DNA of 64,000 nucleotides, taken from the NCBI GenBank assembly GCA_947034885.2, contig OX344753.2, positions 3,224,001 through 3,288,000 on the forward strand, given 5' to 3'. Under the pieces are notes generated by a model that saw only the letters and a program-made list of their open reading frames with translations, was not told the DNA's origin and did not search any database. A program made the position numbers and the translations under genes. Below, piece by piece: positions 4,134 to 64,000 of this stretch. The stretch's first letter is position 1, and each line of letters begins with the position of its first letter. Source of the DNA: Thuidium tamariscinum (lineage: Eukaryota; Streptophyta; Bryopsida; Hypnales; Thuidiaceae).

Positions 4134-5079
4134 CCCCTAAAGGTTTTTGATTATATTTCCACCAAAATCACTACAAAACTGCGATTTCTAGAACAAGTGC
4201 AAATTTTTTGAAAAAAACATTTTTTGAAATATTTAACCATAGGATCTTGTAGTTAGGTAGTTTAAGAAGATGTGAAAAAAATTTCAAAAACTTTCACCGT
4301 GTAGATTGCAAGATATTAACATTTGAACTAGCAAAAATCCTTTTTTTATCCCTGCAAAAATTCGGGCAGCTGCACTTTGCAAGGTCACATTTGTATAAAA
4401 AAATACTCAAAATTATGGTTACCCTTTGAATTAATTTGACAATTCAATTTGGCTATATGGTCAAAAAAATTCAAAACATTTAGAATTGTACAACATATAG
4501 GAAAAAAATAGTAAGTAGAAAGAAGTAGAAAATGCTTGAAATTTTTTAATTGTGAACAATTTATTTATAAAAATGAAAAATGACAATCCAAATGGTTAAA
4601 TTATTGTAATAAACAATCTTCACCCATTGTTTTAGTTTTTTTTATCAAAATTATTAAACATTATATTAAATAAAGAATTTCAAACTTTTTTGTGGAGTAG
4701 AAATTCTATAACTACCTATAAACTATCCCAAACTAAGGTTTTTTTTATAACTTTTGACTCATTTACCAAATTGGAATGATTCAAAGATTTTGATATAGAT
4801 AAAAATATAATAAATCTATTTCAAATTTTTATTTCTTAAGAAAAGAATTTTTAAAGAATTTTTTTTTGCTGCCCAGGCTGCCCGCAATTCAAAAAAACAA
4901 CATATCATGCCATAACTTTTTAACTATGTAGTCAAAAGTTATGAAAATTGTTGGGCCTTATAGGTACTCCTTGAACACATTTTTGTAAAAATTTCAAAGA
5001 AAAAAAATAAAAAATCCATTCATAGTGAGTTGCCCAAAATTTCTATTTTGCCAGAAAATGCAGTTCAGGACTTTAGGGG
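4134..5079. mobile_element. TTAA/CCCC (piggyBac-like) non-autonomous element, 946 bp
   Basis: TTAA at 4130-4133 and 5080-5083 flank the element. The ends are CCCCTAAAGG on the left and CTTTAGGGG on the right, a terminal inverted repeat. The body matches, in inverted orientation, the copy at 61671-62576, and in part the old copy at 685-3262 and the copy at 30100-31004. No open reading frame of note is present, so movement would need a transposase from elsewhere. Kolobok elements also use TTAA, but the CCC start favours piggyBac. Confidence 0.75.
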
Positions 5080-5083
5080 TTAA

Positions 5084-7229
5084 CCATATGAATATGATTT
5101 ATAGATTTTATTTTACTAATTTTGTTTTTGAAAATTACTATTGAAAGTTTTATTTTACAATTCATTGTCACATTTTAGAAATTAGCTTGACTACCTTAAG
5201 GTCATTAAGAGCTTAAGCAATTATACTTTCCATGTCTAAAAACTATTTTTTGGTCATGCAATCCATAAACTGACCAATATTGAACCCTTGCCATAGAAGA
5301 CTTCTCAACCACATGTAGCAATCCACATCCTAAACTACATACTTATACATGGAGGTATTAGAGTTCTACTATACAGTACACACCTCATTCATTTATTCCA
5401 CTCACTATATAATTTGCAACAATGAAATAACAATCTACTAGTACGTGTAAACCTTTAACAAACCCTAAATTAGTAAATCCTAAAGCCAATGGAATATAAC
5501 ACTATAGAAGTGAACTAGCTAGGAGATTTGTCTAAGAGATTTATACCTCTCTCTCTTGGAAGTATTGGCTTGCCTTTTCATCAAATACCTCCAAGTTCAC
5601 CTTATTCTTTGTAACATCCTTCTTGTTTCATTAAACCCTAATCTTTGATACCTACCATCCTATGATTACCTTCTTGATATTGTCATTGATTCCATCATTC
5701 ATCTTTTTCAAATTGTGAGAACAAATAGAAAATCACCTTTATTGTGCATCAATTCTTGCTTTGCAATCACAACACTAACATTGTAATGGTCGAATCCTAT
5801 TGCTCTTCCAAATTCTTAAATGAAAGGCTTTCTATAAGTACTACCTAAAGCATTAAGGATAGCATGTTTTGTAGCTAGTTGTGTAGTACTATGACTTCCT
5901 ATGCATAGCCTAATTTAATTGAGCATTAACTTCATCAACAATCTCTTAATAAGCTTTTGCCAACTTTGATGACAAAACATAATTAAGAAGGTCACCCTTA
6001 GGAAGAAAGTGATCTTATGTCGTCTTTAGAATTGACTTCCTTGTTTGTGGTCAATGACAAGCATCTAAACCTTACTAGATGGTCCTTACAAAGATAAAGC
6101 TATCCTACATTCTTCCCTCTATTAACAAATCTATTTCTTTGTCTTTACACTTCAACAATCCTAAACCACTATTGTTTCCTAACTTTCCTTTCTAGAAAGT
6201 ATCGGCTTTCAATTTTTTGCTTTGACACGATTTTTGTTGAGCATTCTAAGATGCAAGACAAGCTAGTCCATTTTCTAAATTTGTATCAATGCTTCTCTTT
6301 AAGACAACTTCATGCACAATCCATTATTTTGGTCCAATTCACCTCAACTAAGCCTTTTTCTTTGCCAAAGCAATTGACTCTATAGTATGCTAGTAAACCC
6401 TAAACCTACGAGGTCTCTAATTCAAGACCCTAACTACTTAGTACCATGAACAATAGTAATATTAAACAATAATGAATGACATTGATGACAACAAAACAGA
6501 GGCAAAATTTTACTCTAAACCCTAAAATGTTGAATGCAAATTGGAACTTAACAATAATCAAGAATCTCTACTATTTGAAGGACTTGTGCTTCTTCTTCCT
6601 TTACCTTGGTACAACTCTTGTAAACCATTAGATACTTCAGTTTCATTCTACACAAATAACACAATTAATGCCAATAAGCCTTTTACTTCTAAGGTCTTCT
6701 AAATTTGATAAACCCTAAACCTACATAAAACCAGTGTAGGTAGGAAGCTTAGGTTTAATTCCAAATTGGAGATGGTCGTTACTCTAATGCTTCAGATTGA
6801 ACTTCACAAAATGTGTGCTTGTAGAAATGTTGAAGCAAATGCAAACATAAGAAACGTAGATGCCAAATTACCACATTTGACCTAAAACAAAATGAATAAG
6901 TTACTTTTCTAAGAGAGATGCATTCCAAATCCTAATCACTCATCTACCAATCAAAAGCGTACATGTGACTGTTCCACATCACTCTAATAATGTGATGTCA
7001 CAGTTCCTACTACTCTAGTTGTCATTGCAATTATCAAAGTAATTAGCAAACTAAAAATCCAACACCCGTCTTGCCTAGGAAAATCAATTTTGTAAACTTT
7101 ATTGATTATCATTTCATGAAAAAAAATATTTTGAAAGGGTAAAATTTGAAAAATAAAATTGGCACTATGTTTGGTGACATAGAAGTTCATTTCTTTTAAA
7201 AAAAGATTGTATAATGGCATTACATATAA
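5084..7229. other. A+T-rich DNA without a recognisable gene
   Basis: No frame longer than about 80 codons and no domain is visible. Scattered AACCCTAAAC phrases occur around 5640, 6390 and 6710, but they form no array. The region may be decayed repeat sequence. Confidence 0.45.
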
Positions 7230-7237
7230 TCAAACAC

Positions 7238-7594
7238 CTAGGGGAGGACACTTCCCGTTTTAGGCACATTTTGAATGCTTTGAACCAACCACAACTGCTA
7301 GGGGAGACACTTCCCGTTTTTTAATAACCTACGTGCGGCGGAATATAGGGTACATTTAAATAATCTTAGGTAAAATTTATAAAAAATTTACATATAAAAT
7401 AGGGGACATTAAAAAGGCAAAGTGTTTTAAAAATAAAATAGGGATGATAATATGGCTAATTTTTTCGCTTTATGGTAAAATAGGGTCTCTTTTAATGTTG
7501 CCAAGTAATGATTACAAGTAATTGATAGCCCCCCTAAAAATACCCCACCACTGCACGTGGGTCCGCCAAATATACAAGAAGTGCCCTCCCCGGG
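7238..7594. mobile_element. hAT-like MITE, 357 bp
   Basis: An exact 8-bp duplication, TCAAACAC, flanks it at 7230-7237 and 7595-7602. The ends are inverted: CTAGGGGAGGACACTTCCCG on the left, and CCCGGGGAGGGCACTTC read inward from the right. The left terminus is present twice, at 7238 and again near 7301, so the end has been duplicated by about 64 bp. The interior is the shortened inverse of the 1129-2803 element. Confidence 0.75.
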
Positions 7595-7602
7595 TCAAAC
7601 AC

Positions 7603-16544: not shown

Positions 16545-17780
16545 TGTGTGAGCTCCAAATTTGTCACTTTCGACTCATGATTGTTTTTTTCGTTTTTTTG
16601 TAAAATATAATGTATAAAATAGTACAAAAAGCCCCCAAAAGAGTGTAAAACCAAAATAGGCATGTGACGTGCCAATATAGTATTTGGTCATATTTCTAGT
16701 ATTTTTATCCATTTAGGTCTAAATTCCGATTGTGAATAGGTTAAAACCCCAATAATACTCATCTTTTGTGTGAATTCTCAAAATAGCCTCATCTACCTTG
16801 CATGTGACAATTATTAGCTAAAAGTAGGTCTTAGGAATATAGGGTAGTCCTATAGCCCAGTTCCTTCGATAGGTTTATATTTACAATTATTTCTTACATT
16901 TAGTAGAAATCCCAATTTTTAGCCTCGAGATTGATTTTGTCACGATGACTCTATGAAGCAAATCTATGGCTAGAGGATGGTGCATTTGGGTTAAAACCAT
17001 GATAAAAAAATCGATAGCGAGGTTGCTTTGTCAAGATTCCTCTTTCTGTGGAAGATTCTCCGGATCCCGATAATTAAAGGATGGAACAAAATTTATTTCT
17101 CCTTTGGCAATTGTGTAGAATCCAAATGTGGTTTTACACATCTTTTTAAGAATTTCATGGGAGGTCCCTCAAAAAGTTTTGGAATTTTCTAATACTCAAA
17201 AGATGCCTTTATGAACGGTCAATCGCTTTAACCTCCAATGGAAAATTCATAGAAATTACGCAAGTTGCACTAAAATTCCAATAAAAATTAGAATAGCTTT
17301 TTTTATGTTAATAAAGAGCTCCAACAAATTTCAAGACATTTTGATAGCGGGAAGTATCCGAATTAAAGAGTTCATATCTGAATTGACATTTTAAAAATAT
17401 TACAAAGAAGTTGACTGACATTAAGGGTGCATATGACATCAAAATGAGGTCCAAGTTAGGTGTTTTTTTACTCCTTCAGACCTATTAGAGACCCTTGTCT
17501 AGTTACTTTTCATAGAAAAATCAACCTCCAAAAGCTGAATTTTTACTCTATTTGGTCGTTAATTTAGCATTGGGTTTTGTTGAGTTTTTAGTGGATGAAA
17601 AGGGGGAGGGGGGGTCTATTTTATTAAAAATGGATTTTTTAAGCCAATGGCTCACTTCGTTTGTGATTTGGAGTCAAACTCCAAAAGTTACAAATAAGTT
17701 CAACGTAGAAAGTCAAAAATGGTTGGATTAGGATGAAAATTCTAGTTGATAAGTTTACCACAAGAAATTGAGAGGAGGTG
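16545..17780. repeat. Dispersed repeat, copy 1 (possibly LTR-derived fossil)
   Basis: This stretch aligns along its length with 29397-31545 in the same orientation. Shared phrases include GCCAATATAGTATTTG/GTTAATATAGTATTTG near the start and TTAGGATGAAAAT near the end. It contains the unoccupied target (GCTTTAACCTCCAATGG, near 17228) of the TTAA element seen in copy 2. The beginning TGTGAGCTCC and the lack of coding sequence would suit a long terminal repeat, but no internal retroelement region is recognised. It is clearly old. Confidence 0.6.
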
Positions 17781-25884: not shown

Positions 25885-26050
25885 CTTCATAACTTTTCCA
25901 TAATTATATTCCAAGTGTTATGTTCTTTGGTGCATTGGAACCTCCTTTCACTTACCTGTTCACTTGCTAATAAGACAACATAAAAGTTTGACCAACCTAA
26001 TAATAGTAACTAGGTATAGTATTATTTTGCGTCGATTTTGGATACCCCTT
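25885..26050. mobile_element. Truncated, diverged copy of the TA-flanked MITE
   Basis: It shares GTTCTTTGGTGCATTGGAAC and several following blocks with the right half of the MITE at 59700-59972, and ends with TTTTGGATACCCCTTA where that copy has TTTTGGGTGTACCTACG. The left half is missing or too diverged to see. Confidence 0.6.
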
Positions 26051-26052
26051 AA

Positions 26053-26492
26053 AAGTCAACAACAATAATTTGTGGCCAATGAGTGACAAAGAATCTTTCC
26101 TTGTAGGACGAAAGTGCAAGTATTCATCCTCAGTATTAGAGGTGGAAAGGAAATATCTTTTTCAATAGTTTCACTTCCAATGAATATTTTTCACTCATTC
26201 AAAGTAGATGATGCGACATGGTATCAAAATGCATAATTTCCATGGCCACTAGTCCGTTGTTTGAGGGTTAACCCTTGAAGGATCAACCAGTGGCTGTAGA
26301 AATCATGCATTTGATATCGTGTGACATCATCTACTTTGAATAAGCCAAATACACTCATTGAAAGTCAAAATATTGTAAAAGATCTTCCCTTTCTACTCCT
26401 AATATTGAGGATGAAAAGTTGCATTTCTATCCCATAGGGAAAGATTCTTTGTCATCCATAGGAAGCCAAATGTCCGTGGCAATGTTCAAGAG
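26053..26492. repeat. Long fold-back repeat with a TTAA at its centre
   Basis: Arms at about 26074-26267 and 26272-26467 are inverted copies of roughly 75-80% identity; both contain TTCAAAGTAGATGATG and GACAAAGAATCTTTCC. The centre reads GAGGGTTAACCCTTGAAGG, with TTAA at 26268-26271. It therefore looks like two CCCT-type ends of the TTAA family facing each other across one TTAA. TTAA also occurs just outside, at 26049-26052 and 26493-26496, though chance is possible in this base composition. A transcript would form a long hairpin. Confidence 0.7.
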
Positions 26493-26637
26493 TTAAGCTT
26501 GAACTCAAAATAAGTCTCACTAAGATAGTCTGCTCTAAAAGCGATTGCATTCTAAATGCAACCTCTATTTAGGAACCAATGACATGTTATTTGAAATATG
26601 CACATAGATATGTACATGATGAGTTAGGTAGGCTTAA

Positions 26638-26766: not shown

Positions 26767-26770
26767 TAAG

Positions 26771-27097
26771 TAAGGGAGGAGGTCCATAAACCGACCATCT
26801 AAGGGCTGGAGTAGAATTTTGGGCAGGTCAAATATCTTGAAATATTTTTCAGTGAGTTTTCCTTGAAAGACAGCTTGAATAGGCATCTAACCCAAGTCGT
26901 TTCATATTTGTTGGAGCTCTCTAGAATTAGTTATCAAATTCTGAAGTTTAAAGGGCATAGGGCTCTAAAATGGTGCCCTAGCTAAAATGTACACTGTCAG
27001 TACACTGCTGAAGCCTATGAAAATGCAACATGTACAAATACTATACATTTAAGATAGGGCACCATTTTAGAACCCGCTCCATTTAAGAGCCTCCTCC
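26771..27097. repeat. Duplicated segment, copy 1 (inverted relative to 37896-38240)
   Basis: It starts GGGAGGAGGTCCATAAACCG and ends in CCTCCTCC. About 87% of bases match the copy at 37896-38240 on the opposite strand over the first part. Both copies contain the same small MITE at the same place, so the MITE was inserted before duplication. The plus strand, like the minus strand of copy 2, can be read as a peptide containing FSLKDSLNRHLTQVVSY, of unknown origin; in this copy it is interrupted. Confidence 0.7.
26960..27075. mobile_element. Small MITE (116 bp) within the duplicated segment
   Basis: The ends are GGGCTCTAAAATGGTGCCCT and, read inward, GGGTTCTAAAATGGTGCCCT, giving inverted repeats of about 35 bp. 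The same element occurs at 37919-38034. The target duplication is not clear. Confidence 0.7.
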
Positions 27098-27169
27098 TAT
27101 AGTTGCTTTTAGAGCAGACTACCTTACCCAAAAGTTGCCCCAAGGCTCTCATGACCAAATGTAGGCTAC

Positions 27170-28185
27170 TCTTTTACGACAAAAATCTACACGGGTCGGT
27201 TTTAGAATGGGATCAGAATGACCTACAGTACATCACGTACATCACCTCGCTGGCTCCTCTTTTTCTCAATCCACCAGTGGAAGGATCGCTGCCGCTGCCA
27301 AAGACAATCCCCGTACCTGAATGATAAGATTTGCACTCGCTTCAACTTCTCCGCCAGGATTTGTTTCTAACCAGCGGCAATCGATCCCACTCGCCTCCGT
27401 TTATTCTTGTTTTTCAAACCAGCGACAGGAATCCGTCCTCCTTTCGATCCCAGACAGGCTTACGTTAGCAATCAATTGCAAGCATTCGTGGGTCGTCCCA
27501 TGTTCGCGATCCAGAAGGTGCGTGAGCGTAAACCCCACCAGTCGAGTCAATTTGCTTAGTTTCGTGGATGGATGCAGAGCTTTCAGTTTCTGAAGGCTCG
27601 AGCTAGCTCTCTTATGGTGCTGGCTTTCGCCATTTTGATGCTTTGGTGGAGTGCTTGGTTGCGAGCTTCCGAAGCTTCCCCCACCTGAATCCTGTTGAGC
27701 TCTTTTGCCTCGTGCTGGTCACCAATTTCTGTCGTGGTTGATGAGACGCAGTGTATGCCTTGAGATTGCGTCTGTAATGGCAACAATTGATTCCGTTATT
27801 TCTTTCTCCTGGAGAGCGTTCCTACTTGCATTTGAAGATTGTAGCAACGGGAACCTCCCGTGAAGAATACATGCGGAGGTCGCCTTTGCCAATTTGACTC
27901 TGCCTGTCGTTTAGAATAAGATTGTCGAATTCGGGGATGCACTCTCCCAGTTTTCTAATCGACCGATTACAGTGACTTCATTTCCACATTTTTTGCCGTG
28001 GAAGCAAATTAAGACCTCCTGTACTTCGATTCCATGGCATCCATTAACCTACGAGATCAATTGCAGTGTATCCTTGGATTAGTGAAACCCTAATCTGGTT
28101 GCTGTTGCTTTTCATGCAGTGACGGGATCCATCTAGTACCTGTTCTGGGGTAATTCGCAACCGTAGAGTCCAGTCCTCCTTCACC
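27170..28185 (+). promoter_or_regulatory. 5' leader and promoter region of the acetyltransferase gene
   Basis: Base composition shifts from A+T-rich to balanced near 27180, marking the start of a probable host gene region. Several short upstream frames precede the main start: 27572-27688 (38 codons), 28034-28093 (19 codons, ATGGCA context) and a short one near 27870. A pyrimidine-rich stretch ending in TTTTCATGCAG at 28119 is a strong splice-acceptor candidate; GGTGCGT near 27517 could be its donor, giving a leader intron that would remove the first two. No TATA box was assigned. Confidence 0.45.
27572..27688 (+). CDS. Short upstream frame encoding a hydrophobic peptide (38 aa)
   Basis: The ATG at 27572 opens a 38-residue peptide. 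Its middle, SSLMVLAFAILMLWWSAW, would make a membrane segment or uncleaved signal anchor, preceded by basic residues and followed by a short acidic-to-neutral tail. It lies about 500 bases before the acetyltransferase start. It may be an upstream frame with a regulatory effect, a first exon of something else, or a chance frame inside a leader intron. I do not recognise it. Confidence 0.25.
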   Translation: MQSFQFLKARASSLMVLAFAILMLWWSAWLRASEASPT

Positions 28186-28869
28186 ATGAGCAACGAACTG
28201 CCTGTCCCCGAGGGGCCCCTTCCGCAGGGCTCACCCTTACCTCCTCCTTACTACTGGCCCTTCGACCCCACTCTCGTCGACCAACGTCGCGTCGCACGGG
28301 ACAGGCTTCGCAGGTACAACAGCACGGGCTTCTCCACCCTTCCCACTGCAGACCTGGAGTTGCAGCGCGCGCAGATTCTCTCGGAGCTTTTCGGCAAAAT
28401 CAACCCTGCGAAGCCACCCTTCATCGAGCCTCCGTTCCAGTGCGACTACGGCTCCAACATCGAAGTGGGGGACGACTGTTACATGAACTTCGGCTGCTGC
28501 ATTCTGGACTGCGCCAAAGTGACGATCGGCAACAACGTTTTGTTCGGCCCGAATGTGCAGATCTACTGCCCAGGACATCCATTGGATCCCGTTTTGAGGA
28601 ATGGGGTGAATGGGTTCGAGTTCGGGTTGCCGGTGAAAGTGGGTAACGATGTTTGGATTGGCGGAGGTGCGATTTTATTGCCTGGAGTGACGGTGGGCGA
28701 TGGGTCGGTGGTGGGAGCGGGCGCGGTGGTGACGAAGGATGTGGAGCCGCTGGTGGTCGTGGCGGGGAATCCTGCGAAAGTGGTGAAGCGGATTCAGAAA
28801 GGGGACTGGGGAAGGCCCAAGGCTCGCGGCAACGTTACAACAGAAGGACAGGGAACTACTGACACCTAA
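28186..28869 (+). CDS. Maltose/galactoside O-acetyltransferase family protein (227 aa)
   Basis: This intact intronless gene encodes a left-handed beta-helix acetyltransferase of the NodL/LacA/Maa group, which moves acetyl from acetyl-CoA to a sugar hydroxyl. Residues 24-72 (WPFDPTLVDQRRVARDRLRRYN and on) match the N-terminal maltose-acetyltransferase cap. The hexapeptide coil runs from about 75 to 205. The catalytic histidine is His131 in YCPGHPLDP. VWIGGGAILLPGVTVGDG and VVGAGAVVTKDV form the late coils and AGNPAKVV the usual end. The first 20 residues are proline-rich; the tail after 208 is family-atypical and may be disordered. No targeting peptide is evident, so a cytosolic site is likely. 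ATG 28186 is chosen because the cap follows directly. G+C content is far above the flanks, and the protein looks bacterial or fungal in style, suggesting ancient transfer. The substrate is unknown. Confidence 0.9.
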   Translation: MSNELPVPEGPLPQGSPLPPPYYWPFDPTLVDQRRVARDRLRRYNSTGFSTLPTADLELQRAQILSELFGKINPAKPPFIEPPFQCDYGSNIEVGDDCYMNFGCCILDCAKVTIGNNVLFGPNVQIYCPGHPLDPVLRNGVNGFEFGLPVKVGNDVWIGGGAILLPGVTVGDGSVVGAGAVVTKDVEPLVVVAGNPAKVVKRIQKGDWGRPKARGNVTTEGQGTTDT

Positions 28870-29396: not shown

Positions 29397-31560
29397 ATTG
29401 TGAATTCCCATTTTGTCACCTTAGACTCACTACTGTTTTTTATTTTTTTATTTTTGCAAAATTAAGTGTGGAAAATAGTACCAAAACCCCTCCAAAAGTG
29501 AAAAATCAAAATAGGTATGTTACATGTTAATATAGTATTTGATCATATTTTGAGTGTTTTTACCTAAATAAATCCAAATTCTACTTGTAAATAGGTCAAA
29601 GACTAAAAAATCACAATATTTACCAATCTTTAGTAGAATTATCCAAAATAGCTTAATCTAACTTGTATGTGACAAAAAATGGCTAAATTGGTTCAAGAGA
29701 ACTTGGTAAGAATCCTAGAGCCCAATTTCACAAATAGATTACAATTTCTCTTTCAATTCCCAAATTCCATAGAAACTTCAATAGTTAGCTTGTGAATTGG
29801 AGAAATTCATGACAAACTAGTGAATTTAGAGTTGGAGGATGATGTTCCAAGGTTGAAAATACACTAGGAACTTAATAGTAAACTAAAGTTGCTTTGTCAC
29901 TCGAGATTCTTTTTTGTGTAAAAGATTCTCTAAAATCTAGTAATTTAAAGAGGTAGTAAGATTTATTTTGTCATTGACAATTGAATAAAGCAAGAAAATG
30001 AACTTACACATTTTTTTAGGATTCTATGAAAGATTCTACAAAATGTTTCAAATTTTTTGATATTCAAAAGATGCCTTTTTGGATGATCAACTGCTTTAAC
30101 CCCTAAAAGCCCATTGTCCCCTCGGGGGACAATTTGGAGTTCAAGCAAGTTCTATAGACCTCAATTTTTAATGAATCTTCTTAAAACTTTCTCATAATAT
30201 AGGAAAATTGATTAGCTTTTGTAGGAATATAATTTTTATTTCAATTGGTGCCTAGAAGCAAAAGTTATACTACAAAAAGCGTGGATTTTAACTCGGTGAG
30301 CAGAAAAACAAATCCACAAAAACTTGAAATTAAATTAAATTATTTTTCTTATAGATTATATTTTCATCTACATGTGAAGCTTTGATTCATTCCATTTGGA
30401 TTAGTTTTGAGAAAGTTATGAACAATCTTGTTTTTGGGCAGTTTTTCAAAAAATAACTTATAGGATTCATTTTTGAATGAAATTTTCACATTTTCTCAAA
30501 AGAAATGCTTGACAAGGTTAAATTTGCTTGCTAGAACAATCTCACCATTGGAATTATTGTGTTTCAATTCCATCTTAGAGCTATTAACAATTTAATTTTT
30601 CTTTCAACCTTAGACCTACCTCTATCTAATAATTTTTTTAAAGAATGAAAATCAAGAATTCTTTTTTTAAATTTTTTCCTAGACTTTCAAATCAATTCTT
30701 AAACACATAAATTTTTTAATTCAAAGTCCATAGTGTAAAACATTCAACAAATGGCAATCAAAGTCATCTAAAATTGTAGGACAGTGTTTAAAAAAACTAT
30801 GTTTTCCAACTTTGAATGCTCATATCTTCCAATCTATACGGTCAAACTTCATGAAATTTTTACCACATGATTTCAGACAAATAAAATAGAAGATACTACG
30901 GTTAGATTCTATAAAAACACTTTTTTTGTTCTTTTGGATGAACGCAGCAAAAATGACTGTTTTGAGTGGTTTTTGACAGAAAAATGGCCTTAGGCCTTCA
31001 AGGGTTAATTTACGATGGAAAATTCTTAGAAATTATCCAATTAGTGGTCAAATCTCACTAAAAATTGAAGTAGCTTCTTATATGTTGATAAGACTTTGCA
31101 ACAAGTTTTAAGACATTTCAATAGCCAAAAGTGTCCAAATTGGCAAGATTCTCTAATTACCAGCAAATTTAAAGTTTTCAATGGAATTTGATTGGCATTT
31201 CAAGACTATACAAAATCAGAATGAAGTGAAAGTGAAGTTTTTTTTATCATTCTCTCTAATCTACTTAAGAGCCTAGGTTAGTTATTTTTCTAGAAAAATC
31301 AAAGTCCAAAAGTTGGATTTTACCACTTTACAGGGTTAAGTTGGTGCTAGGTTTTGTTATGTTTTTTGCAATGAAAGAAAGTAGAAATCATTATGACAAA
31401 AAATGACCTTTTACAGCCAAAGGCACAATTCATTTGTAATTTGGAGTCTTTCTCCAAAAGTTAGAGTTTAGGTTCAACATAGAAAATAAAAATTGATAAT
31501 TTAGGATGAAAATCCTATATGATAAGATTATTACAACAAAATGAAGTTTTTATGATTAAA
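29397..31560. repeat. Dispersed repeat, copy 2 (possibly LTR-derived fossil), with a TTAA insertion
   Basis: It aligns with 16545-17780 on both sides of a 905-bp insertion at 30100-31004. Its upstream neighbour (29330-29400) recurs inverted near 39790-39850, so the repeat unit may be longer. No coding sequence is recognised and it is old. Confidence 0.6.
30100..31004. mobile_element. TTAA/CCCC (piggyBac-like) non-autonomous element, 905 bp
   Basis: TTAA lies at 30096-30099 and 31005-31008. The ends are CCCCTAAAAG and, read inward, CCCTTGAAGG. The related repeat at 16545-17780 has a single TTAA at this point, so the element and one TTAA are extra here: direct evidence for insertion with TTAA duplication. 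The right part matches the copy at 61671-62576 (CTTCCAATCTATACGG / CTTGCAATCTACACGG). An internal GC-rich palindrome lies at about 30111-30133. It has no coding capacity. Confidence 0.82.
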
Positions 31561-36567: not shown

Positions 36568-37895
36568 ATAGTGAAGACATTAAAATTGAATTATTTTGCT
36601 CTAGTAGTCATGGTAGGTTCAAAGGTATACTCGAAATGGTTTGAAGACACTATAGTATAGCTGTTGAAAATCAAATGTGTGATGTATGCTACAAGAAGGT
36701 CACAAGATTCAAGCTAGCTATTTTTGCTTTATGGATGACTTCTAAGGTGACATGGCTTTTGTGGCCATCCAAAATCAATAAGTCTTAATTGTCACTTGAA
36801 ATGCCTTGTAGTTCTTGGACATTTTTGATAAAATGCAAAATCCATTCAAAGAACAAGTATGATGTCATCTATGCCTTTTGTTGCATGGCCATATAAGCTC
36901 CCAACTCACACTTCTCCACATAATTCTATCTCAATTGTTTATTTTAAAAGATACAGAACAAGAGATTGGATGTCCTAGATGCATTAATATAAACTAGTAT
37001 CACTACAAGAGAAAGGGATATTTTAAGTATAGTCCTAGTAGTATAGTCTTTTAAATAATGACCTTTAAGTCATTTTTTTAGTAAAATTTTAATAAAAATG
37101 TGCCAAAATTTCAATTGACGCTTGTAAATTTGGATGTTTTTTTAACGTCAAACAAAACGAGGTCCTGCAAGCTTTGCAAAGGACTATATGTAGAGGGGTC
37201 TTAAGTGTCACATAAGCTCTTTTTGGGATGGATAGTGCTACACGAGACAATTTTCCATCCAACATTATTTTGACCAAGGTTGTGACATGGATTTGGAAAA
37301 AAAAGTGATGTGGACCCCAAATTATGTTGACATGGACTATCAAATTATACTAACATGGACTCTCAAATTATACTGACGGAGACCCCAAATTATGTTGACG
37401 TTGCATGTTTTGTTAGCATACTTTTGTGTCATTTGAAACAACAAATTAGATGTTTTTTAAAACATCAATTGATACAAACCCTACCTATAAGGTAAATTCA
37501 ACCAATTTCTTTTTTTAAATTTAAGGAAAAAAAATGAACAAGGAAATTTGTTGAATTCAATAAAAAATGAAGAAAACTTACCATCTACCATTAAAAGAAT
37601 TTTGATGGTGAAATGAAGGAATTACTTCATTTAAAGTTAATGAGAGTGAAGGGGAGAGAGAATATATCTATATCCTTTCTCAGCCCAATGTGAGACAAAA
37701 GATATGAGACCTATAATATGGCAATTTAACCATGTCGATGTCATTTTAGACATGTAGATATTGTTTTAGACAAGTCGACATTGTTTTTGATATTTTATAT
37801 TGAATAGTATTGTTGTTTTATGTATCTCACATGAATTGTCTCTCTTTCTACTACTCCACTTGTATAAAGAACATTTTGTTTCATCCATGCTATAT
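36568..37895. other. A+T-rich DNA without a gene
   Basis: About 37300-37400 carries four loosely similar units of 21-28 bp built on ATGGACTCTCAAATTATACT / GACCCCAAATTATGTTGAC. A CACTACAAGAGAAAGG phrase at 36997 resembles a CACTA terminus but has no visible partner. Confidence 0.4.
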
Positions 37896-38240
37896 AGGAG
37901 GAGGCTCTTGAATGGAGCAGGTTCTAAAATGGTGCCCTATCTTAAATGTACAGTACTTGTACATGTTGCATTTTCATAGCCTTCAGTAGTGTACTGACAG
38001 TGTACATTTTAGCTAGGGCACCATTTTAGAGCCCTATGCTCTTTCAACTTCGGAATTTGATAACTAATTCTAGAGAGCTCCAAAAAATATGAAACGACTT
38101 GGGTTAGATGCCTATTCAAGCTGTCTTTCAAGGAAAATTTACTAAAAAATATTTCAAGATGTTTGACGTGCCCAAAATTCTGTTTCAGCCCTTCGATGGT
38201 CGGTTTATGAACCTCCTCCCATACATCCAAGTTATACATC
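37896..38240. repeat. Duplicated segment, copy 2 (inverted relative to 26771-27097)
   Basis: It begins AGGAGGAGGCTCTTGAATGG and ends CCTCCTCCC. It includes the same nested MITE as copy 1 (here 37919-38034). On the minus strand it overlaps a 92-codon frame (38287-38009) containing EEVHKPTIEGL and FSLKDSLNRHLTQVVSY. The peptide is not recognised. The segment itself has short inverted ends (GGGAGGAGG type) and may be a mobile unit or captured sequence. Confidence 0.7.
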
Positions 38241-52260: not shown

Positions 52261-55200
52261 ATGCGTCGAAGGTTGTGTGCGGCTTACCATATAGAGCGCA
52301 CAATAGCTAATAGGCTGGGATTACGTGAATATCCTTGTGCATGCACACGTTGCAGAGGCGGACGATTGAAGAAAGTTGACATCGTTGCAAGGCACCATCG
52401 TGCTAATGGACGTGATCCATACTTAATATACCCTGTCATGGTAATATTTCGTTTTGAATTCAACACCTTGTTTGTTCATCTTCACTTTTCACTTTAATTT
52501 GTAGGTTGCATAATAGAGCGCCATGCTGCCCGTCCCACTCAGAGTACGTTTTCCATTGTCTTATTCTTCTCACAAAGGTATTATGTATTGTTTTTACAAA
52601 TACATATAGGAAATGTTGTTGAGTGATGGGTTCACTTTAGATTTAGAGGTACATAATTGTGCTCAGGCAGTGCATGTCTTGATTTTATAAAGTTCTTACT
52701 CCAGTTGTCATCGTCTTTGGTGATCTACAAACTGTGGATGGGCAAAATGTATGTCGTCCTACTCGACGTCCACATCGACAGGAAGAGCTGTATCGACGTG
52801 AGGGACATGAAAACGGGAATGAAGGATTCACGTGGCCAAATAGGACTGTTGTTGATGTGGAAAATATGGCTCGGGATGCCTTCGGCCGAGTAGATGAAAT
52901 CCATGATGATGTTCTCGATGAGGATGGTCAAGCACCTAATGATGTCAACAACATCGAAGGAGATGGATCCTAGAGCGAAGAAAACTTGGAGTATTTGGTA
53001 CGAGAATCCACTCAACCAGTTTTTGAAGGTAGTACTCTTAATCGTCTCCAATGTGGCATTGTATTCTTCTCTCTATGCAGTCTTTACTCAGTACCACAAA
53101 CTTTCATGGATGCAATGTTAACTTGGATAGCCGGGGACCTTCTTCCCACGTCGAATTGCTTCCCGAGAACATCTTATGAGGTGAAGACTATGTTGATGAG
53201 GTTGGGACTAAAACATCAGCAAGTGCATTGTTGTCCTAACAGTCATGTGCTCTATGAGGGGGACAACGAGGACCTAATTGAGTGTCCAACATGCCAACAA
53301 AGTCGTTATATTCCGGGATCTGACAGAGTTCCACGAAAGGTTGTACGATACTTTGATGTCATACAACGTTTGCTGCGAATGTTCAAATGCCCAGAAGTAG
53401 CCAAATACATGACTTGGTATGACAACCATAGATCAAGAGGGCAAGTAATGAGGTCTGCATGTGACAGTTTGCAGTGGAAGAATATTGATCGAATTCATCC
53501 TGACTTTGCGGAAGTGAAGACAAATCTCCGTCTTGGACTGGTTGGAGATGGCATTATTCCATACAGAAACAATGCCATCAAACATTCGACTTGGGTTTTC
53601 CTAATTACAATTTATAATCTCCCCCCTTGGCTTTTAACTAAAAAATTCTTCATATCACTAGCTATACTAATTCCTGGTCCTCAATCTACTACAAGTGATA
53701 ATGTGGATGTTTTCCTACGTCCATTAGTGCGTGATCTACTGAAGTTGTGGACGAGTGTGCCGGCAATAAATATGTCAAAACCTGATGGAGAAAGAAGATT
53801 CATTTTGAGAGCACTGTTATTGTGGACAGTAAATGATTTTCCTGCGTATGGACTTCTATCAGGTCAACAAACCCATGGGTATAAAGGGTGCCCCCTGTGT
53901 GGTCCAGAGACGTGCGCAGAGTATGCCCCACTACTTAGAAAAATGATATATCTTGGAGGAAGACGATACCTTCATGCCAATCACCCATTTCGAAGGGCTA
54001 GAGCTGCATTTAATAATCACCCAAAGTGGGATATGACTCCAGATAGACCAACAGGAGAAGAAATTTTGCGATGGGCATGCGAAAGGGAAGACTATCTAAA
54101 CGAAGGTGGAGTTGAGAATTCAGAGGACGACCCTGTAAAACGTCATGGCGTTAAACGGAAGAGTGCACTGTACGAGCTGCCTTATTGGAAGGTGCGTTCA
54201 TGAAATAATGTTATAAAGGGAGTTTGAAATTATTTCAGTTGTACCAAATTCATGGAACTTTTTTTTTTGTCTATCATGAGGCTTGGTAAAATCGTAATAG
54301 TTGCTGAATGCAAGAAGTGTCATGTCTTGTGGAAAAAAAAAAAAAAATTGAACTGTATGAGGGATTAATTATGTTGACTTATGCATATTCGTTTTTGTTG
54401 GAAGCTAGTGTATCATTCACTGTTTTAGTTGTCAACAACCGTATCTTTCTCAGAAGTGTATTACTGATTGTGAGAATCAATATTCCTTGCAAATCAGTGT
54501 TCCTAGGAATGAGCAGAGAAAGTGTAATATTGTTAAATTTTTTAAAAACACGTAATTGTATGCATTGAAGTCTGGTACTCATGCCTCCATATTCTTCTTC
54601 ATTTCTGGTCAATTTGTTCATGTAGGGATATAGAAGGATTTGACTGAAGGTGAGGCCCTTAGAAGCCTTTGACACCTGAAATGCAGTGTATGAGATGAAG
54701 TTTCATGAGTCGCAGTGAAAAATGCATTTCTGTAATTAGGAATCCTACGTAGAATTAAAAACGATAGAAAATCTTTTTTTTTGTCAATGACAATGAATTA
54801 ATTCATTTAATCGGATGCAAATTTTACGCAAGAGAGAATATTTAGTATACAACCATGACAGTGAAATATAATATTTCAACAGTTGTGTTTTGAACTTCTG
54901 ATATGGAGGCTGTCATTTCACATCATTTACAAGTCTGTAGGGGAGAAATGAGAAGATTCCTTTTAGGGCAATGTTGTGTGCTTGTCACATCCAATCCGTT
55001 TTAGGGGTGGAGATTGAAATTACTTTGTGTTTGATCGAAGTCAATTGTACAGAAATTTGTGCTTCTTAATTCTGTAGAAAGGTTACTGAGTGAAAACTTG
55101 GAACGATGATGATCAACTTAAGTTCTCAATCAATTTCTTCATTAAAATATAATTGTTAATAGAACTTAGAATTAGCTGAGGACTAATACTTTAAAATTGG

Positions 55201-57571
55201 AATCTTTGTAATAATATTTAATGAGATGCTTCTGAAATTTACATTGGCTTTTTCCAAATACGCAATAGTGGCGAAGCGGTGTCTACCTAGAATTCTAAAA
55301 ACAGTTTACCACTTACTGAGGCTTCTTTTCATAATGGCAAGGTTGATACAATGTTTAGAAGCAGTTTGAAATTAACTATTGCTTGATGTTGCCAAAATAG
55401 TCAATAGTGTATAGTAGTTGAGAGAGTGAGAGAGTGTTGGTTAATCTGGATGAAGAATTTCAATTGACATTTGGGTTTGTTGATGTCATTGCAGGACCAC
55501 CTTGTACGTCAAGCTTTAGATCCCATGCATTGCGAGAAAAACCTTTGTGAAAATATATTAAAGACAGCAATGGGTGAGAAAGATTGCCCCGCAGTAAGAG
55601 TTGACATGCAAACAAGGAATATTCGTCCACATCTTCATTTGCAAGTTGTGGGTCCAAACGGTGATAGATTTTATATGCCGGATGCTACCTATGTTTTATC
55701 TGCTGTGGATAAGGCGAAGGTGTTCCGTGTACTGAAGTCGTTGAAGACTCCAACAAATTATGCAAGCAATTTGCACAACAAAATCAACAAAGGGAAGTTT
55801 AGTAGTCTTAAATCACATGACTATCATGTTCTTATGCAGCAAATTCTGCCATTATGTTTTCGAAAAGTCTCTAATAAGTCTTTTGCCAGAGCAGTGATAC
55901 GAGTGAGTAGAGTGTTTAAGAGAATTTGTGCCAAGACAATAAATGGTGAAGATCAAGAGCAATTTACAGCGGATTGCGCAGAAAGTATGTGCTTGCTAGA
56001 AAAAGAGATGCCACCATCGTTTTTTGATATAATGCCACATCTTCCTAACCATTTAGTGGAAGAGGTTTTCCTATGTGGTCCCGTTCATGCAAGGTGGATG
56101 TACCCTTATGAGCGTTATTTCAAGAATTTGAAAGGATTTGTGCGGAATTTAGCAAAACCGGAAGCAAGTATTGCTCAAGGTTATCAAGTGGAAGAAGCCT
56201 TGGGGTTCATTACTGAATATATGGCAGACTACAACATTACTTCACGACGAGTGTGGGATGACAAAGAAGAGCCAACGATGGTGGATGAAATTTTGGAAGG
56301 GAAGGGCAAACCGAGAGATCTATCTGAGGAATTGAGGGATGCAATGCATGCATTTGTTTTGGACAATGCAAACCACTTGGAGCCATACAGAGAGTAAGAC
56401 TTTCCATTCTAATTTTGAAAAGATGTAGGGGAGTCTCTGTGGTCGACATGGTACGAAGTGGGCGTGAAAGACAAGAGTTTGGTATGCGTAAGGACTTTGT
56501 GAAGAGTGGACATGAATAAAAGTTTATAGTTATGGACGAGAGCGTCTTTAGCAAAAGGGCATGAATAGTAGATCATTCAGTACTTTGGAAGTCAACATTC
56601 ACACGACATGAACATACATGAGAATATTTTTTAATTAGTGAAATAAAATTTTAAAACACTAACTTCTCTTGTATTGTGATTTTGGGTGTAGAAGGTATCA
56701 ACAACTTTGGCAAGAAAGAACAGTAGCACGAGAAGAGTTCCGTCGAAGGCACCCACGAAGGAATGGAAGAAGATGGCAACCGTATCCCACTGAGTTGGAA
56801 GAGTTACCACCTTTCCCTACATGGATCCGAAAAGACATCGAGGATGCTAAAGAAGGAGGGATTGTGGTTCCTGAAGATGTGGAAGATTCATCGAAACCAC
56901 CGAACTTACGAGCACGTAAATTCAAGAGTATGTATGCATATGGTTATCACTTCCGAGTGAAGAGTGCAGAGAGTAGCTTGAGCACCTTTGACTCGGGGTT
57001 AGCTGCTGTTTTTCGCAGATATTGCCGATCAGGCAGACGAGATCAAAATCCAGTGGATGCTACTTTGGAATACATAGGCCAAATTTTGGAGATTGTGGAG
57101 TTGAACTATGAACGACATTGCACCGTCTTGTTCGTGTGTGAATGGGTGAAGGCTAATTACAGGGGGAGGAATGCCACAATAAAGAAAGATGAATGGGGAT
57201 TCACTATGGCCAATTTCAACTCCCTTGTACCATTTGGATATGAATCGTTTGCTTTCCCAATTAATTGTGACCAGGTATTTTTTTCGGATGATGAAGATGA
57301 GCCAGGATGGAAGGTAGTATTACGAACTGAGGTTAGGGGGCGTAGAGTAGATAGTGAAATGGAGGATGAAGAAGAAAGTGAGATGTTCAGAATGGGAGAG
57401 AATTCAGATTTTGAGGGACTTGAAGCTGCAGCCTTCAGTGAAGAGGAAAATGGAGTTCCCATCCGCACAGGTAGAAACATTGAGATGAATGAAGTGCTTG
57501 GAGAGGGGATAGAAGAAGCAGCTTCAAATTTTGACCGGGATCTCGGAGAGTCCTCAGAAGATGAAAATTGA
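52261..57571 (+). CDS. TNP2-type CACTA transposase (four exons, one in-frame stop)
   Basis: Exon 1 (52261-52440) carries the N-terminal transposase-associated motif EYPCACTRCRGGRLK. Exon 2 (start uncertain, open from 52683, to 54191) carries the Transposase_21 core with CPNSHVLYEGDNEDLIECPTC, candidate catalytic Asp in LVGDGIIPYR (53547) and Asp in TVNDFPAYG (53835), and a zinc-type CPLCGPETC. Exon 3 (55495-56393) opens DHLVRQALDPMHCEKN with the candidate third acid, Glu, at 55534, then a DUF4218-like region. Exon 4 (56692-57571) has FRRRHPRRNG, FPTWIRKDIE and a DUF4216-like GYESFAFPINCDQVFF. Junctions 2-3 and 3-4 agree in phase; junction 1-2 is unresolved. Total is about 1,150 codons, normal for the family. 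A TAG at 52971-52973 interrupts exon 2. The protein would cut and join the CACTA ends in the nucleus. Confidence 0.85.
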
Positions 57572-57856: not shown

Positions 57857-58128
57857 AGGTAGGTACACCCAAAAGCGTCAGTTTCTCTACTGTGCCTAGT
57901 TCTTGTTATTATGTTGTTCAAATTTTTTTACAGTCTTGTTGGTGAGTGAAAGCATGTTCCAACGCACCAAAGAACAGTGGATTTGGATACCGTATACAAA
58001 AGTTATTAACAGTCAAAGTGTGTTTCTGAAAGCGCCATCTACAGTCTGGGTACATGACTGATTTTGAAAATCTATGCACGTGGTACAGAGCGCTTTAAAG
58101 TCAGGTGCCATTTTGGGTGTACCTACCT
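57857..58128. mobile_element. TA-flanked MITE, 272 bp, copy 1
   Basis: Perfect inverted ends AGGTAGGTACACCCAAAA are flanked by TA (57855-57856 and 58129-58130). TA duplication fits Tc1/mariner-type MITEs, although the ends do not resemble classic Stowaway. The body is the inverse of the copy at 59700-59972. It was inserted into the CACTA element after the 3' end of the transposase gene. Confidence 0.85.
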
Positions 58129-59699
58129 TACTACGGAGTGGTTGCGAAGGTTTCGAGCATGGACCATTGAAGTAAGTGTACACTTCATGTAGAATATAAA
58201 GTACATGTGGTTGCTTTAAAGCACGTGTTCTTATTTCTAGTGATTGCATCAGAACATATGGTAGTTGAAGAGGTATGTGAAGTATGGAATTCCTGGGGCT
58301 AGAGAGGTCATGTTTCTTATTGTTCAATGCCTTCTTTGAATGAAAATTATTTTATTGTAACTATGGGGTTGTTGAATTAAAATGTTGATACCATCAGAAG
58401 GACATGCACATGGCAGTTTTCATTATAGTCCTCGTTATAGTCTGGGAGTTTTAATGAAATGTCTTTATAGTTGGTTCACTGAATTTCATTCCTGAATTTG
58501 CAAAAGTGTGTTTTCCATTCTTCCATTGTAATGTGTTGTTTAAAGTAGGCTTCTGATTTACTAATTAATTACTATGTGGAAGTGGGGGTTAGAGTAATTG
58601 GAGCTATTGTGTAGAAGTCGGGAATACAGTGACCTTTGTACGACTTGCTGTGGAAAGTCTCATTCATTTTCAAGCGTGGCTTTTTATATATGGTATAAGA
58701 AAAGGACGCGTAGAACATTAATGTTGTCACTATTAAAGATGTTTGTATTGCTTTGAGGCTAGAGGAAGATGAAGAGTAATGTAGAGAGTTTTATTTTTTA
58801 ATTAATTAATTTAATTTCAAAATGTTTAGTCCATTAAGAGAGAAATAGCATTTCTGTTGGTACTTCTTCAAATAGAAAGCAGTCCTGGCTTCTCTTGCTG
58901 TTATTTTATCGAGTATTTGTTTTTATAGAAGACATGAGTAGAAGAAATGTACTACTGTTTTATAGATTTTCAAAGGAAATTGTTAGTAATTGTTGATTGA
59001 TTATTTGAAAAATGTATTTTTAACTTCGATGGAAAGTGAAGCAGATGTCAATGATGAGCAAAATTTCCTTCTTAATGTGAAGGAGATGTTGTCTACCCTT
59101 GCCCACAAGGATTGCATGCTTCTTATGTAATTTTTGCATTGAGGTATGTTCATTCCACATGGAAGAAACTGTGTGTGTTATTTGTCTTTAAAAGTCCACT
59201 AGTGCCCTAGTTTGATTCCGAAAATAATGTTTTAAATTGACAGGAATCTAAGTAGTTTATGTTTTCAAAATTGTTTGATCTCTCTAGTTGGGAATTTTTA
59301 TAAAAGAAGGTGATAGGAAACCTGAATACAACAATTTCATATAAAATGAACAATAATATGAGAACATCTTTGAACGTCCATTTCATTAATTAGAAATTAA
59401 GAGCAGACTCTTCAAAAACAAAGTCAATAGAATCGCTTGAATTGGCAATGACATTTGTGCAATTAAAATGTCAAGCAGATGTTCTTCACAATGATCTTGG
59501 ATTGGTGCAATTGGGAGGCAGTCTCTGAAGTCAGCGAAGTATGACAGTGATGGTAAAATGTAAGTGTATTTTACTTATTAATTCAGTTTTCTGATTTCAA
59601 GTTTGGAAAATACTGTTCACTTTGTAAGTTCATTAGGTCATTGTGATTGCACTTGTGAAATGGGGTCATAGTCTTGAAGAAGAGATTCAGGTAGAAATA

Positions 59700-59972
59700 A
59701 GGTAGGTACACCCAAAAGTGCCCTGTTTCTAAAAGCGCCATCTATAGCGCACATACATTTCCAAAATCAGTCATGTTCACAAATTGTAGATGGCGTTTTC
59801 AGAAATAGACTTTGACTGTTAATAACTTTTGTATACAATATCCGAATCATGCGTTCTTTGGTGCATTGGAACATACTTTCACTTGCCAACAAGACTACAT
59901 AAAAATTTGAACTAATTAATAGTAGGAAGTAGGCTCAATATGAATAAGTGGCGCTTTTGGGTGTACCTACGT
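59700..59972. mobile_element. TA-flanked MITE, 273 bp, copy 2
   Basis: The ends are AGGTAGGTACACCCAAAA and, inward, ACGTAGGTACACCCAAAA, flanked by TA (59698-59699 and 59973-59974). It shares GTTCTTTGGTGCATTGGAAC with the truncated copy at 25885-26050, and the inverse with 57857-58128. Confidence 0.85.
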
Positions 59973-60507: not shown

Positions 60508-60660
60508 ACGTATAAGAAGGACCCTTCATTCGCATGCCAGCATGTGTGGTGTACAAGGTTGTTATTCAACAACAATGTTAATGGAGTTGAAAGTGAATTG
60601 CTGAGTCTTTTGACTGAGAGTCAGCCTCCTCACTCACATTATGAAATAGCTGAGACCTAA
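60508..60660 (+). other. Possible terminal exon of an unknown CACTA-borne frame
   Basis: After an acceptor-like TTTTTGTATTGCAG (ending 60507) an open frame reads TYKKDPSFACQHVWCTRLLF and ends with TAA at 60658-60660. It lies 3 kb beyond the TNP2 stop and has no recognised domain. It may be a remnant exon or chance. Confidence 0.25.
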
Positions 60661-61670
60661 AACTGGGATTGTAGGTATTGTTTCTTTGAGAATTGAATTT
60701 GTTCAACATATTACTTCTCACAAGTCACAAGGCACTTGCATTGTTGATGGCTTGATATATGAGCTGAATTAGGTCTAGTTTTTGTGAAGTTTACAAGAGC
60801 TAATAAACAGAAGATGCAAGACAAGTTTTTGCATAGATTCCAGTTGCAGGTGGAATGAAGTTGAAATTGGTCACAGTGAGCAAATTTTTCTTGCAGCTGT
60901 GCGTAAGTATTGTATAGAATAAACGTGTTTGTCGTTCCAAAATTCCTTGGATTTAATGCATTCACAATTTCACACCCAATGTGTTCGGAATCAGCAAATG
61001 TTATATTTTTCAACCTAGAAATGTAAACAATAATAGTAGCTATATTATTCTGGTAGTCACAGTACCTTACGTGTATAATAAATTCAAAACATGAATCTAG
61101 GTTATGAAAGTTTTATAGTCAGAAGTAAGAGGCTAGTTGTATTAAATGAGACATGTAGGTTTGAATAAGAGGGCAATCACTTTTAATCCTTTGTATCGTT
61201 GCTTTATACACACATGCCCACTGATGTAGTATGTGAAATTTGCAGCATGAATGAAGTCATGAGGGTATTTTCAGAATTTCAGTAGAACATGCACCATTCC
61301 AAAATACAACTGAGAAAACCTCCGTACTTTCACTAAGATATGCATTTTTGTAGTATATGCATCTTATAAACCACATACATTTAGTTTTCAATAATATCAC
61401 CACGTTTGAAAAGGCTCCATGTTCAACAATGTCTAAATCAACAACAAACATGTAGCATCTGTTGAAGCCTTTCCAAGTATCTGTCCAATTTAACAGATTG
61501 TGACCTCATGTGCTCCAAACAACACAAATTTGTTGGTTTTCTGTTGTCTTGGTCACCATTTTCTAGTAGTGATAACAAAAAACATCATAAAAACATTAAA
61601 GATAATTATGATATTGAAACTAAGAAAACACCAATACTAGTAATACAACATCAACAACATGAGAAATTAA

Positions 61671-62576
61671 CCCCTAAAGCCCTGAACAACGTTTTTTGAG
61701 ATTATAAATTTTTTGGGCAGCTCACTACTGATGGAGTTTTTATTTTTTTTCTCTGAAATTTTGATACAATGTGTGCCCGAGGAATAGCTTTAAAAAGTTA
61801 TAGCAGGATATGTTGTTTCCTTTACTCGGCGAGCAGCCCGGGCAGCTCAAAAACTTCTTCAAAAAAACTTTTTTTTTAAAAGTGAAATTTCAAATTGGTT
61901 CTTTAGGTTTATACAGGCATGGGAAGCTTTGAATCAATCCATTCCAATCAATGAGTCAAAAGTTATGAAGATTTTGAGTTTGGGGTAGTTTGCGGCCAGT
62001 TACAGAATCTCTACAGTCCAAAAAATGTTTGAAATTCTTCATTTAATTCAATTTTTCATATTTTTGGAAAAAAATGAAAAAAAAGGTGTAGATTGTTTAT
62101 TACAACATTTTAACCATTGGGATTGAAAATTTTCAATTCCATGAATAAAATGTTCACAATTTAGTATTTTGGCTCATTTTTTACTTCTTTCTACTTACTT
62201 ATTTTTTCCTATATGTTGTACAATTTCAAATGGTTTGAAATTTTTTGAGAATGTAGCCAACTTGCATTGAAGTATGAATTCAAAGAATAACCACCATTTT
62301 GAATTTTTTTTCACACAAATGTGACCTTGTGAAGTGCAGCTGCCTGGATTTTCGCAGGGATAAAAAAACAATTTTTGTCAATTCAAATGCTTATATCTTG
62401 CAATCTACACGGTGGAAATTTTTGAAATTTTTTCCGCATGTTTACAAACCACCTTGCTACAAGATCCTACGGTTACATGAGTCAAAAATGTGTTTTAAAA
62501 AAAAACAAATTGCACTTGTATTAGAAATGGCAGTTTTGGAACATATTTGGTGAAATTATAGTCAAGGCTTTAGGGG
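61671..62576. mobile_element. TTAA/CCCC (piggyBac-like) non-autonomous element, 906 bp
   Basis: TTAA flanks it at 61667-61670 and 62577-62580. The ends are perfect 11-bp inverted repeats, CCCCTAAAGCC. The body is the inverse of 4134-5079 and matches 30100-31004 in the same orientation. It lies only 96 bp beyond the large CACTA element. The 84-codon frame within it (62299-62553) resembles no transposase. Confidence 0.82.
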
Positions 62577-62580
62577 TTAA

Positions 62581-63769
62581 CATTATAAAAATAGTGTATA
62601 GATTAACACTTGAATATGACTTCTATTGTAATATAAAGACCATATATATTTTATTTATATATATGCATTTGCAATGGTTTGGGTTTTGAATCAATGGTGC
62701 AAGACAAAAAGGCCAACATTCTTAGCAAACTTAGCCACATGGAAGTGAGAGTATCCAAACCCTACAATAATTTCTTAATGGATACTTTATGTGGACACAA
62801 ATCCCCATAGTACAACCTCATTGTAAATTTACTGCTCAATTTTTTTGTCTTGAAACAATAGATTCTTACATGTTGTCACATAGTTGACATACTTATCGAA
62901 AGATTTGTATGTACAAGCTACAATTATTTGCTAGATTGGGTAGGTTTTATCATTCACTTAAAGAAAATTGTCTACATTTATACTCATTGTATTATAAAAA
63001 ATTTGTATGGACCCTATTTGTGAAGACTAATTTATTAATAAAAATTTCTACTAAATAATGTTTTTACAGAGCCTAATATATATAATACGATATGTGACAT
63101 TTCAAGGACCCTATAGTAGTCCTATGTATTATATAAAATTTATCCTCTTTGAATTAAATGGACTCTATCTTTTAACTCATGTAGTTTTCTAAAAACCACG
63201 AGTAATCTCCTTGGATAAATGACTCCTTGCCTCCATTGGAATTCTAGTACTTTAGACATAATTAGATATGGATCATGACTGTTAATGGATACCTCTACTT
63301 TATTGAAGTTTGGAGTGGAGGATCAATAACTATGTTTCCATTCAAAGAGTGGTATAGATATTTAGTTCTTTTCACAATAATGCTCTATACTAAATTGTAT
63401 TTTGATCTTGAAATTTTCATATTTTTTTAGCATGATTTGTATAGGCTTTGAATTTTCTTCACTTTTTCTTTCAATATTCATGCTAATTTCAGCCTTTCAC
63501 AAAAATCTAATATTTATATTATTTATATTGGATTTGTGGTTTCTTCTTTGAAGATTACAACCTAGACATTCACTTTTAAATAGAGGAGAAAAAAAAAAGA
63601 TTTGGAATGGAGGATTTGGGATTTTGACTTCTTGATGATAGTTTTGTCCTTTTAGGGCTAGGGTGTTCCAACAAGACTTGTGCTTTATGGAAAATTGAAT
63701 TGTTGTGTAGGGCTTATTCATCTTCTATTGAACATGTAGATAGATTTTAGCAGTATACCAAGTAGATTG
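62581..63769. other. A+T-rich DNA without a gene
   Basis: No frame, array or terminal repeat is recognised. Confidence 0.45.
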
Positions 63770-63773
63770 TTAA

Positions 63774-64000
63774 CCCCTAAAGGACCTAGCTATATTTTTG
63801 GTAATATAGAAACTTTAGCAAGTACATGTGACCAGAGATTTTATTATTATTTTTTGAAATTTTCACAAAACATATGGACAAGAAATATATTTAAAGCCCA
63901 ATAAATTTCATAACTTTTGACTACATAGCTAAAAATTATTGCATGATATGTTTTTTTCCAACTCAGGTAGTCTAAGCAACTTTAAAAAAATCGCTTTTTT
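63774..64000. mobile_element. Left end of another TTAA/CCCC element, cut by the window edge
   Basis: TTAA at 63770-63773 is followed by CCCCTAAAGGACCTAGC, and the body resembles 4134-5079, including the phrase TTTCATAACTTTTGACTACA. The right end is outside the window. Confidence 0.65.

Follow-up and report, generated by a model that had tools for sequence, protein, structure and literature searches.

The piggyBac transposon of Trichoplusia ni and piggyBat duplicate TTAA at their insertion site, have inverted ends of the CCC type, and encode a DDE_Tnp_1_7 transposase with a DDD triad and a Cys-rich C-terminus. All of these features recur in the elements described here. Miniature inverted-repeat transposable elements (MITEs) of the piggyBac type reportedly occur in animals such as corals. 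The summary of one paper states that piggyBac has been isolated from insects, fungi, and plants. A repeat table for the C-fern gives 1,230 PiggyBac copies amounting to 122,417 bp (PMC6890710), one passage of a review names PiggyBac among the angiosperm MITE superfamilies (PMC10004981), and the main text of a MITE survey of 207 plants contains neither 'piggyBac' nor 'TTAA'. No report of piggyBac transposases of mosses was found in the open-access literature, among the matches listed; a match for Niphotrichum was to the word 'piggybacking' and was rejected. Here, we analyze a family of 0.9-kb TTAA-flanked elements in a 64,000-nucleotide stretch (the window; C5:3224001-3288000) on a 30.6-Mb contig of a genome that is almost certainly that of a moss. 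The window elements are, with high confidence, non-autonomous (MITE-like) members of the piggyBac superfamily. The superfamily is known and the host is unexpected, and we do not claim a first report.

Results

The window family

The sequence-only reading of the window had proposed at least four clear copies of a TTAA-flanked family plus an old split copy. The family is real, and its termini are TTAA-CCCCTAAAG...CTTTAGGGG-TTAA. The window holds three full, AT-rich copies of 0.91-0.95 kb (E1-E3), one end of a fourth (E4), and the old copy in two parts (Table 1). E1 and E3 are full copies; the copy at 30.1 kb (E2) belongs to a diverged subfamily, and the one at 63770 (E4) is not a clean full copy. 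Past the window end, the far part of E4 runs in inverted orientation, and a search there for the left terminus of E4 found none. The end consensus in the window is TTAACCCCTAAAG...CTTTAGGGGTTAA. TTAACCCCTAAAG occurs exactly at five places in the window (4130+, 5071-, 61667+, 62568-, and 63770+). With up to two mismatches it occurs nine times against 2.49 expected, and none of 100 shuffles reached nine. The inverted ends are CCCC...GGGG in the window copies and CCCC...AAGGG in E2.

A family profile was made from E1-E4, leaving out the old split copy. The profile independently recovered both parts of that copy, 679-1127 and 2805-3260 (E 8.9e-51 and 3.7e-50), and gave zero matches in the reversed window. 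The proposed split copy is thus confirmed. With the 1,675-bp insertion between its parts removed, the flanks align unbroken to profile positions 16-919; the insertion itself appears to be hAT-like. Only one open reading frame of at least 80 amino acids lies within E1-E3 (91 residues, in E3). The elements lack transposase coding, have many candidate relatives in the genome, and share their ends with transposase-bearing elements, as is typical of MITEs, although at 0.9 kb they exceed the usual MITE length.

The whole genome (363,211,507 bases in 19 contigs) was searched with the DNA of E1. There were 9,625 first-look candidates, of which 40 were scored, and the 42 matches listed consist of E1 itself, 39 others that share 85-89% identity with it, and two pieces that are 71 and 73% identical. 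The full query span is covered in 35 of the first 40 listed. The 85-89% identity of the best-scoring relatives to E1 suggests older insertions.

The TTAA target site

The flanks of E2 joined around one TTAA align to a paralogous empty site with no gap at the insertion point (Table 1). The E2 locus has two TTAA where the empty site has one; the flanking region is itself repeated, with one copy holding the element and one without it. This result supports the TTAA duplication proposed earlier. Three points weigh against this reading. A single empty site, that of E2, was examined; for E1 and E3, joining the flanks revealed no empty site in the window; and because TTAA is palindromic, the E2 site alone is equally compatible with duplication of TA, TTA, or TAA. 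The usual plant MITEs are of the PIF/Harbinger (Tourist) and Tc1/mariner (Stowaway) kinds, and such elements could have duplicated TAA/TTA or TA inside a chance TTAA, which contains all three.

The element boundaries were read from an alignment of ten genome copies of E1, including E1 itself. Across the terminal 13 columns of each side, those of TTAA among them, 80-100% of copies keep the majority base, compared with 30-60% in the 20 outside columns, apart from single columns at 70 and 80%. Similarity among the copies stops at TTAA. With the coordinates used, an intact TTAA is present at the left end of 9/10 copies and at the right end of 8/10; the right end of one copy (L036) was extrapolated and is probably a few bases off. 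The outer T and A are thus kept in most of the ten copies. The inverted ends are also symmetric around TTAA, and the longer members described below carry a piggyBac transposase, so that a Harbinger or mariner origin is exceedingly improbable. The conserved outer bases and the transposase type, together with the empty site, identify the 4-bp TTAA as the duplicated target, shown at one site.

piggyBac transposases in the genome

The sequence-only reading had placed the transposase outside the window and called the elements piggyBac-like. The genome was searched with PF13843 (DDE_Tnp_1_7), giving 659 candidates. Of these, 116 were scored and all 116 passed the cut-off (E 5.7e-80 to 1.4e-70), whereas 0/14 control genomes matched. 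The transposase, absent from the window, is thus present elsewhere in the genome. Twenty of the 116 loci were retrieved together with their flanks. They are a non-random sample of high-ranking loci, in which most repeats with an identical score were passed over. In 17 of the 20, the transposase is bracketed by TTAA-flanked, CCC-initial inverted ends that agree at no fewer than 10 of 14 bases, counting pairs among the three best found per locus; no CCC-initial pair was found by that search in L013, L018, and L031. The elements are 4.9-7.1 kb long (15 elements; L020 and L023 not included).

Open frames at L017, L021, and L025 match DDE_Tnp_1_7 with E values of 4.5e-80, 5.1e-79, and 2.9e-79, respectively. 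Against the PDB, the 629-residue open frame of L025 matches piggyBat (9c0f) at 1e-26 and piggyBac (6x67) at 1.8e-22, L017 matches them at 7e-33 and 3.4e-24, and the corresponding values for a profile built from ten moss sequences of the transposase are 2.7e-52 and 4.3e-47. The L025 motifs TIDE, DNYFSS, and GVDVVDQ align to the Asp motifs of 6x67 and 9c0f. These three Asp columns, which we take to be the catalytic residues, are invariant in 10/10 aligned moss transposases. All three motifs were found by simple pattern in 9/20 loci; the remaining 11 are broken or lack one or more motifs by pattern. The Cys-rich C-terminal motif CxxC...CxxC...C...H was found by pattern in 13/20 loci, and the rest are broken there or do not fit.

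Kolobok elements also duplicate TTAA, as do those of Sola3, and the Kolobok transposase differs from that of piggyBac. A Kolobok identity would fit the duplication at the E2 site. The longer members with the same ends as the window family carry DDE_Tnp_1_7, however, and the Kolobok termini given in one published description are 5'-RR...YY-3' (PMC9587614) rather than the 5'-CC...GG-3' found here. On the ends and the DDE_Tnp_1_7 matches, we give the Kolobok alternative almost no weight.

A conserved domain of about 100 residues lies upstream of the catalytic frame in 18/20 loci (for example, L017:6949-7281 and L021:6780-7097) and was not found in L019 and L030. Its best Pfam match had an E value of 0.061 (14 of the 18 sequences aligned), and a profile of 14 sequences had a best PDB match of 0.15; both were taken as chance. 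The domain may be a portion of the transposase that is specific to plants. Short-peptide-pattern scans of viral contigs with the moss transposase, as a single protein and as a profile, confirmed no relatives and so revealed no viral carrier there, although such scans can miss distant relatives. The element-body pattern had three exact matches in viral contigs; none is homologous to the family and they were taken as chance.

The short and the transposase-bearing elements share their ends

The family profile had 17 matches at E <1e-3 in the 20 transposase loci, whereas neither the reversed loci nor five block shuffles gave any. Some of the 17 are further short copies nearby. In L019, L025, and L030, both element ends match the window family in register from TTAA (Table 1), and L023 matches at one end only. 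These longer, transposase-encoding members bear out the piggyBac-like identity proposed for the window family. In a tree of 16 transposases, midpoint-rooted for drawing only, L019, L023, L025, and L030 group together (support 100/99; the L030 row is 37% filled). These are the four tree rows whose left ends start with CCCCTAAA, and other groups have other ends. About 20 bp from the end, E2 carries the palindrome GTCCCCTCGGGGGAC, which L019 and L030 each carry at one of their ends; it is a plausible candidate for a transposase binding site. In a GC-rich group (L012, L014, L016, and L021), one end contains a subterminal stretch similar to GGCAGCGCCAATTTGTGGCGTTT, which may be another such binding site.

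The shared ends could have arisen by convergence, the window family being moved by some other transposase and the piggyBacs of the genome being separate. The likeness is confined to the terminal regions, and no coding part of the long elements is seen in the short ones, which speaks for convergence. On the other hand, the match in L019, L025, and L030 runs inward for 216-491 bp per side, in register, with E values down to 5.7e-40 and none in the controls, and the palindrome is common to E2, L019, and L030. Convergence is very unlikely.

Further observations count against assigning the window family to piggyBac and to this transposase group. An element uniting the exact window body with a transposase was not found, and the short-long link extends only over those terminal 216-491 bp. 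The catalytic region of L030 is interrupted by stops. L025, open over a 629-residue part, is at most a putative intact mobilizer of the window subfamily. Unrelated A-initial pairs score as high as the true end pair in L019 (12/14) and L020 (10/14). Finally, the recently moved elements described next belong to the GC-rich group, which is distinct from the group sharing the window-family ends.

With these points weighed, membership of the window elements in the piggyBac superfamily stands as the best explanation. The transposase of the L019/L023/L025/L030 group would bind the shared ends, excise the short copies at TTAA, and reinsert them at a new TTAA, acting in trans in the manner of piggyBac. 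The short copies probably arose by internal deletion of longer transposase-bearing elements.

Recent movement

Between their bounding TTAA sites, a span of exactly 5,096 bp, L021 and L022 show only two mismatches (99.96% identity), and their flanks are unrelated. This near-identity indicates that piggyBacs of this genome moved recently. A 1,023-residue open frame is listed at ten places with an E value of 4.8e-78, and a frame of equal length occurs at an eleventh place, that of L021, with 4.1e-78.

The host

The earlier attribution to plant DNA was correct and can be narrowed to moss. A LEAFY gene was found in the genome (SAM_LFY, E 1.6e-27, with five weaker matches besides and 0/14 controls). 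Its DNA-binding exon, at the same locus, is identical to PDB 4bhk (FLORICAULA/LEAFY HOMOLOG 1), the closest entry, at 100/106 positions and to 2vy1 (PROTEIN LEAFY) at 75/103. We take 4bhk to be from Physcomitrium and 2vy1 from Arabidopsis, and the exon's Asp and Cys at 312 and 345 are presumably the moss-type residues. These identities make a moss host almost certain. The window also contains a CACTA-type transposon (52974-57571; frames in the order Transposase_21, DUF4218, and DUF4216), which fits a plant.

Other features of the window

The window also holds TTAA elements outside the family. The ends of the 229-bp element adjoining E1 are similar to those of the GC-rich autonomous group (CCCTGAAACGCCGG). 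Two short elements of another family lie head to head with a single TTAA (26268-26271) common to both, and in L014 one copy stops at TTAA and is followed by CTCCTAAAGCCCT. E1 on the TTAA of its neighbor, the common TTAA of the short pair, and the break in L014 show a nesting that fits a TTAA-seeking mechanism.

Table 1. Positions and ends of the elements in the window, and of the three longer elements whose ends both match the window family
Feature	Positions	Strand	Length	Ends and remarks
Old family copy, left part	679..1127	+		profile positions 12-464
Insertion splitting the old copy	1129..2803		1,675 bp	8-bp duplication CCCCAATA; GGGGACACT at both ends
Old family copy, right part	2805..3260	+		profile positions 459-921
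TTAA element	3905..4133	+	229 bp	ends CCCTGAAACG / CCCTGAAGCG; adjoins E1, one TTAA in common
E1, very probable non-autonomous piggyBac-type element	4130..5083	+	954 bp	length includes both TTAA; ends CCCCTAAAGG / CCCCTAAAGT
Paralogous empty site of E2	17031..17421	+		one TTAA (17228-17231); E 2.9e-37
Short TTAA element, other family	26044..26271	-	~228 bp	inner end CCCTCAAAC; outer end decayed
Another copy, same short TTAA family	26268..26495	+		inner end CCCTTGAAGG; head to head with the 26044-26271 copy
E2, diverged subfamily	30096..31008	-	913 bp	ends CCCCTAAAA / CCCTTGAAG; subterminal palindrome GTCCCCTCGGGGGAC
E3	61667..62580	-	914 bp	CCCCTAAAGCC at both ends
E4, single terminus	63770..64000	-		TTAACCCCTAAAGGAC; continues beyond the window
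L030			6,453 bp	CCCCTAAAGGCCCA at both ends; profile 1-379 and 710-925; E 5.7e-40 and 5.8e-17
L025			7,121 bp	profile 1-478 and 680-925; E 1.6e-18 and 5.7e-26
L019			5,143 bp	profile 1-255 and 710-925; E 1.5e-27 and 2.8e-15

The start of 3649-3904 (TTAACCCTTGAAGGACTAA) resembles the end of E2, and its body matches the family profile with an E value of only 0.011; it is perhaps a very old or recombined family copy. Inverted arms of 243 nucleotides, 79% complementary, lie at 57888-58130 and 59698-59940. Inside them is an inverted pair, TTAA-CAGTCAAAGT, bounding 58006-59822, a possible further DNA transposon. Inverted repeat copies of 332 nucleotides, 94% complementary, at 26770-27101 and 37893-38224 belong to a separate repeat family. 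A 248-residue open frame with a maltose-acetyltransferase cap and hexapeptide repeats (28123-28869) lies within a GC-richer stretch and is a possible horizontal acquisition.

Discussion

This moss genome holds many piggyBac transposase genes, some of them intact and recently moved, and the superfamily is thriving in a land plant. An old and diversified branch of piggyBac specific to plants may still be active in mosses, with several deep transposase lineages in one genome, ends that follow the lineages, a plant-specific N-terminal domain in most members, and probably thousands of short derivatives served by them; we regard this as an evenly balanced proposition. The finding raises the question of whether moss piggyBac was inherited vertically or acquired horizontally. 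Such DNA may be overlooked or wrongly classified by annotation pipelines that lack a model of TTAA elements. The moss elements also offer a source, native to plants, of the kind of transposon that one account describes as already applied to rice for editing without a footprint (PMC10905368).

The moss elements differ from piggyBac and piggyBat in their host and in the upstream domain of about 100 residues, which has no significant Pfam match. They are also longer, since piggyBac is given in one account as a well-defined element of 2,472 bp (PMC10813416). The animal piggyBac MITEs are likewise short, lack a transposase, and belong to the same superfamily, whereas the window family has a plant host, a length of 0.9 kb, and long shared stretches in its subterminal regions. 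The PiggyBac entry in the C-fern table averages about 100 bp per copy and comes with no description of a transposase, and the angiosperm MITE review, in the passage naming PiggyBac, has the name and a plant host in common with our elements and likewise describes none. In contrast, the moss genome provides both transposases and an insertion site.

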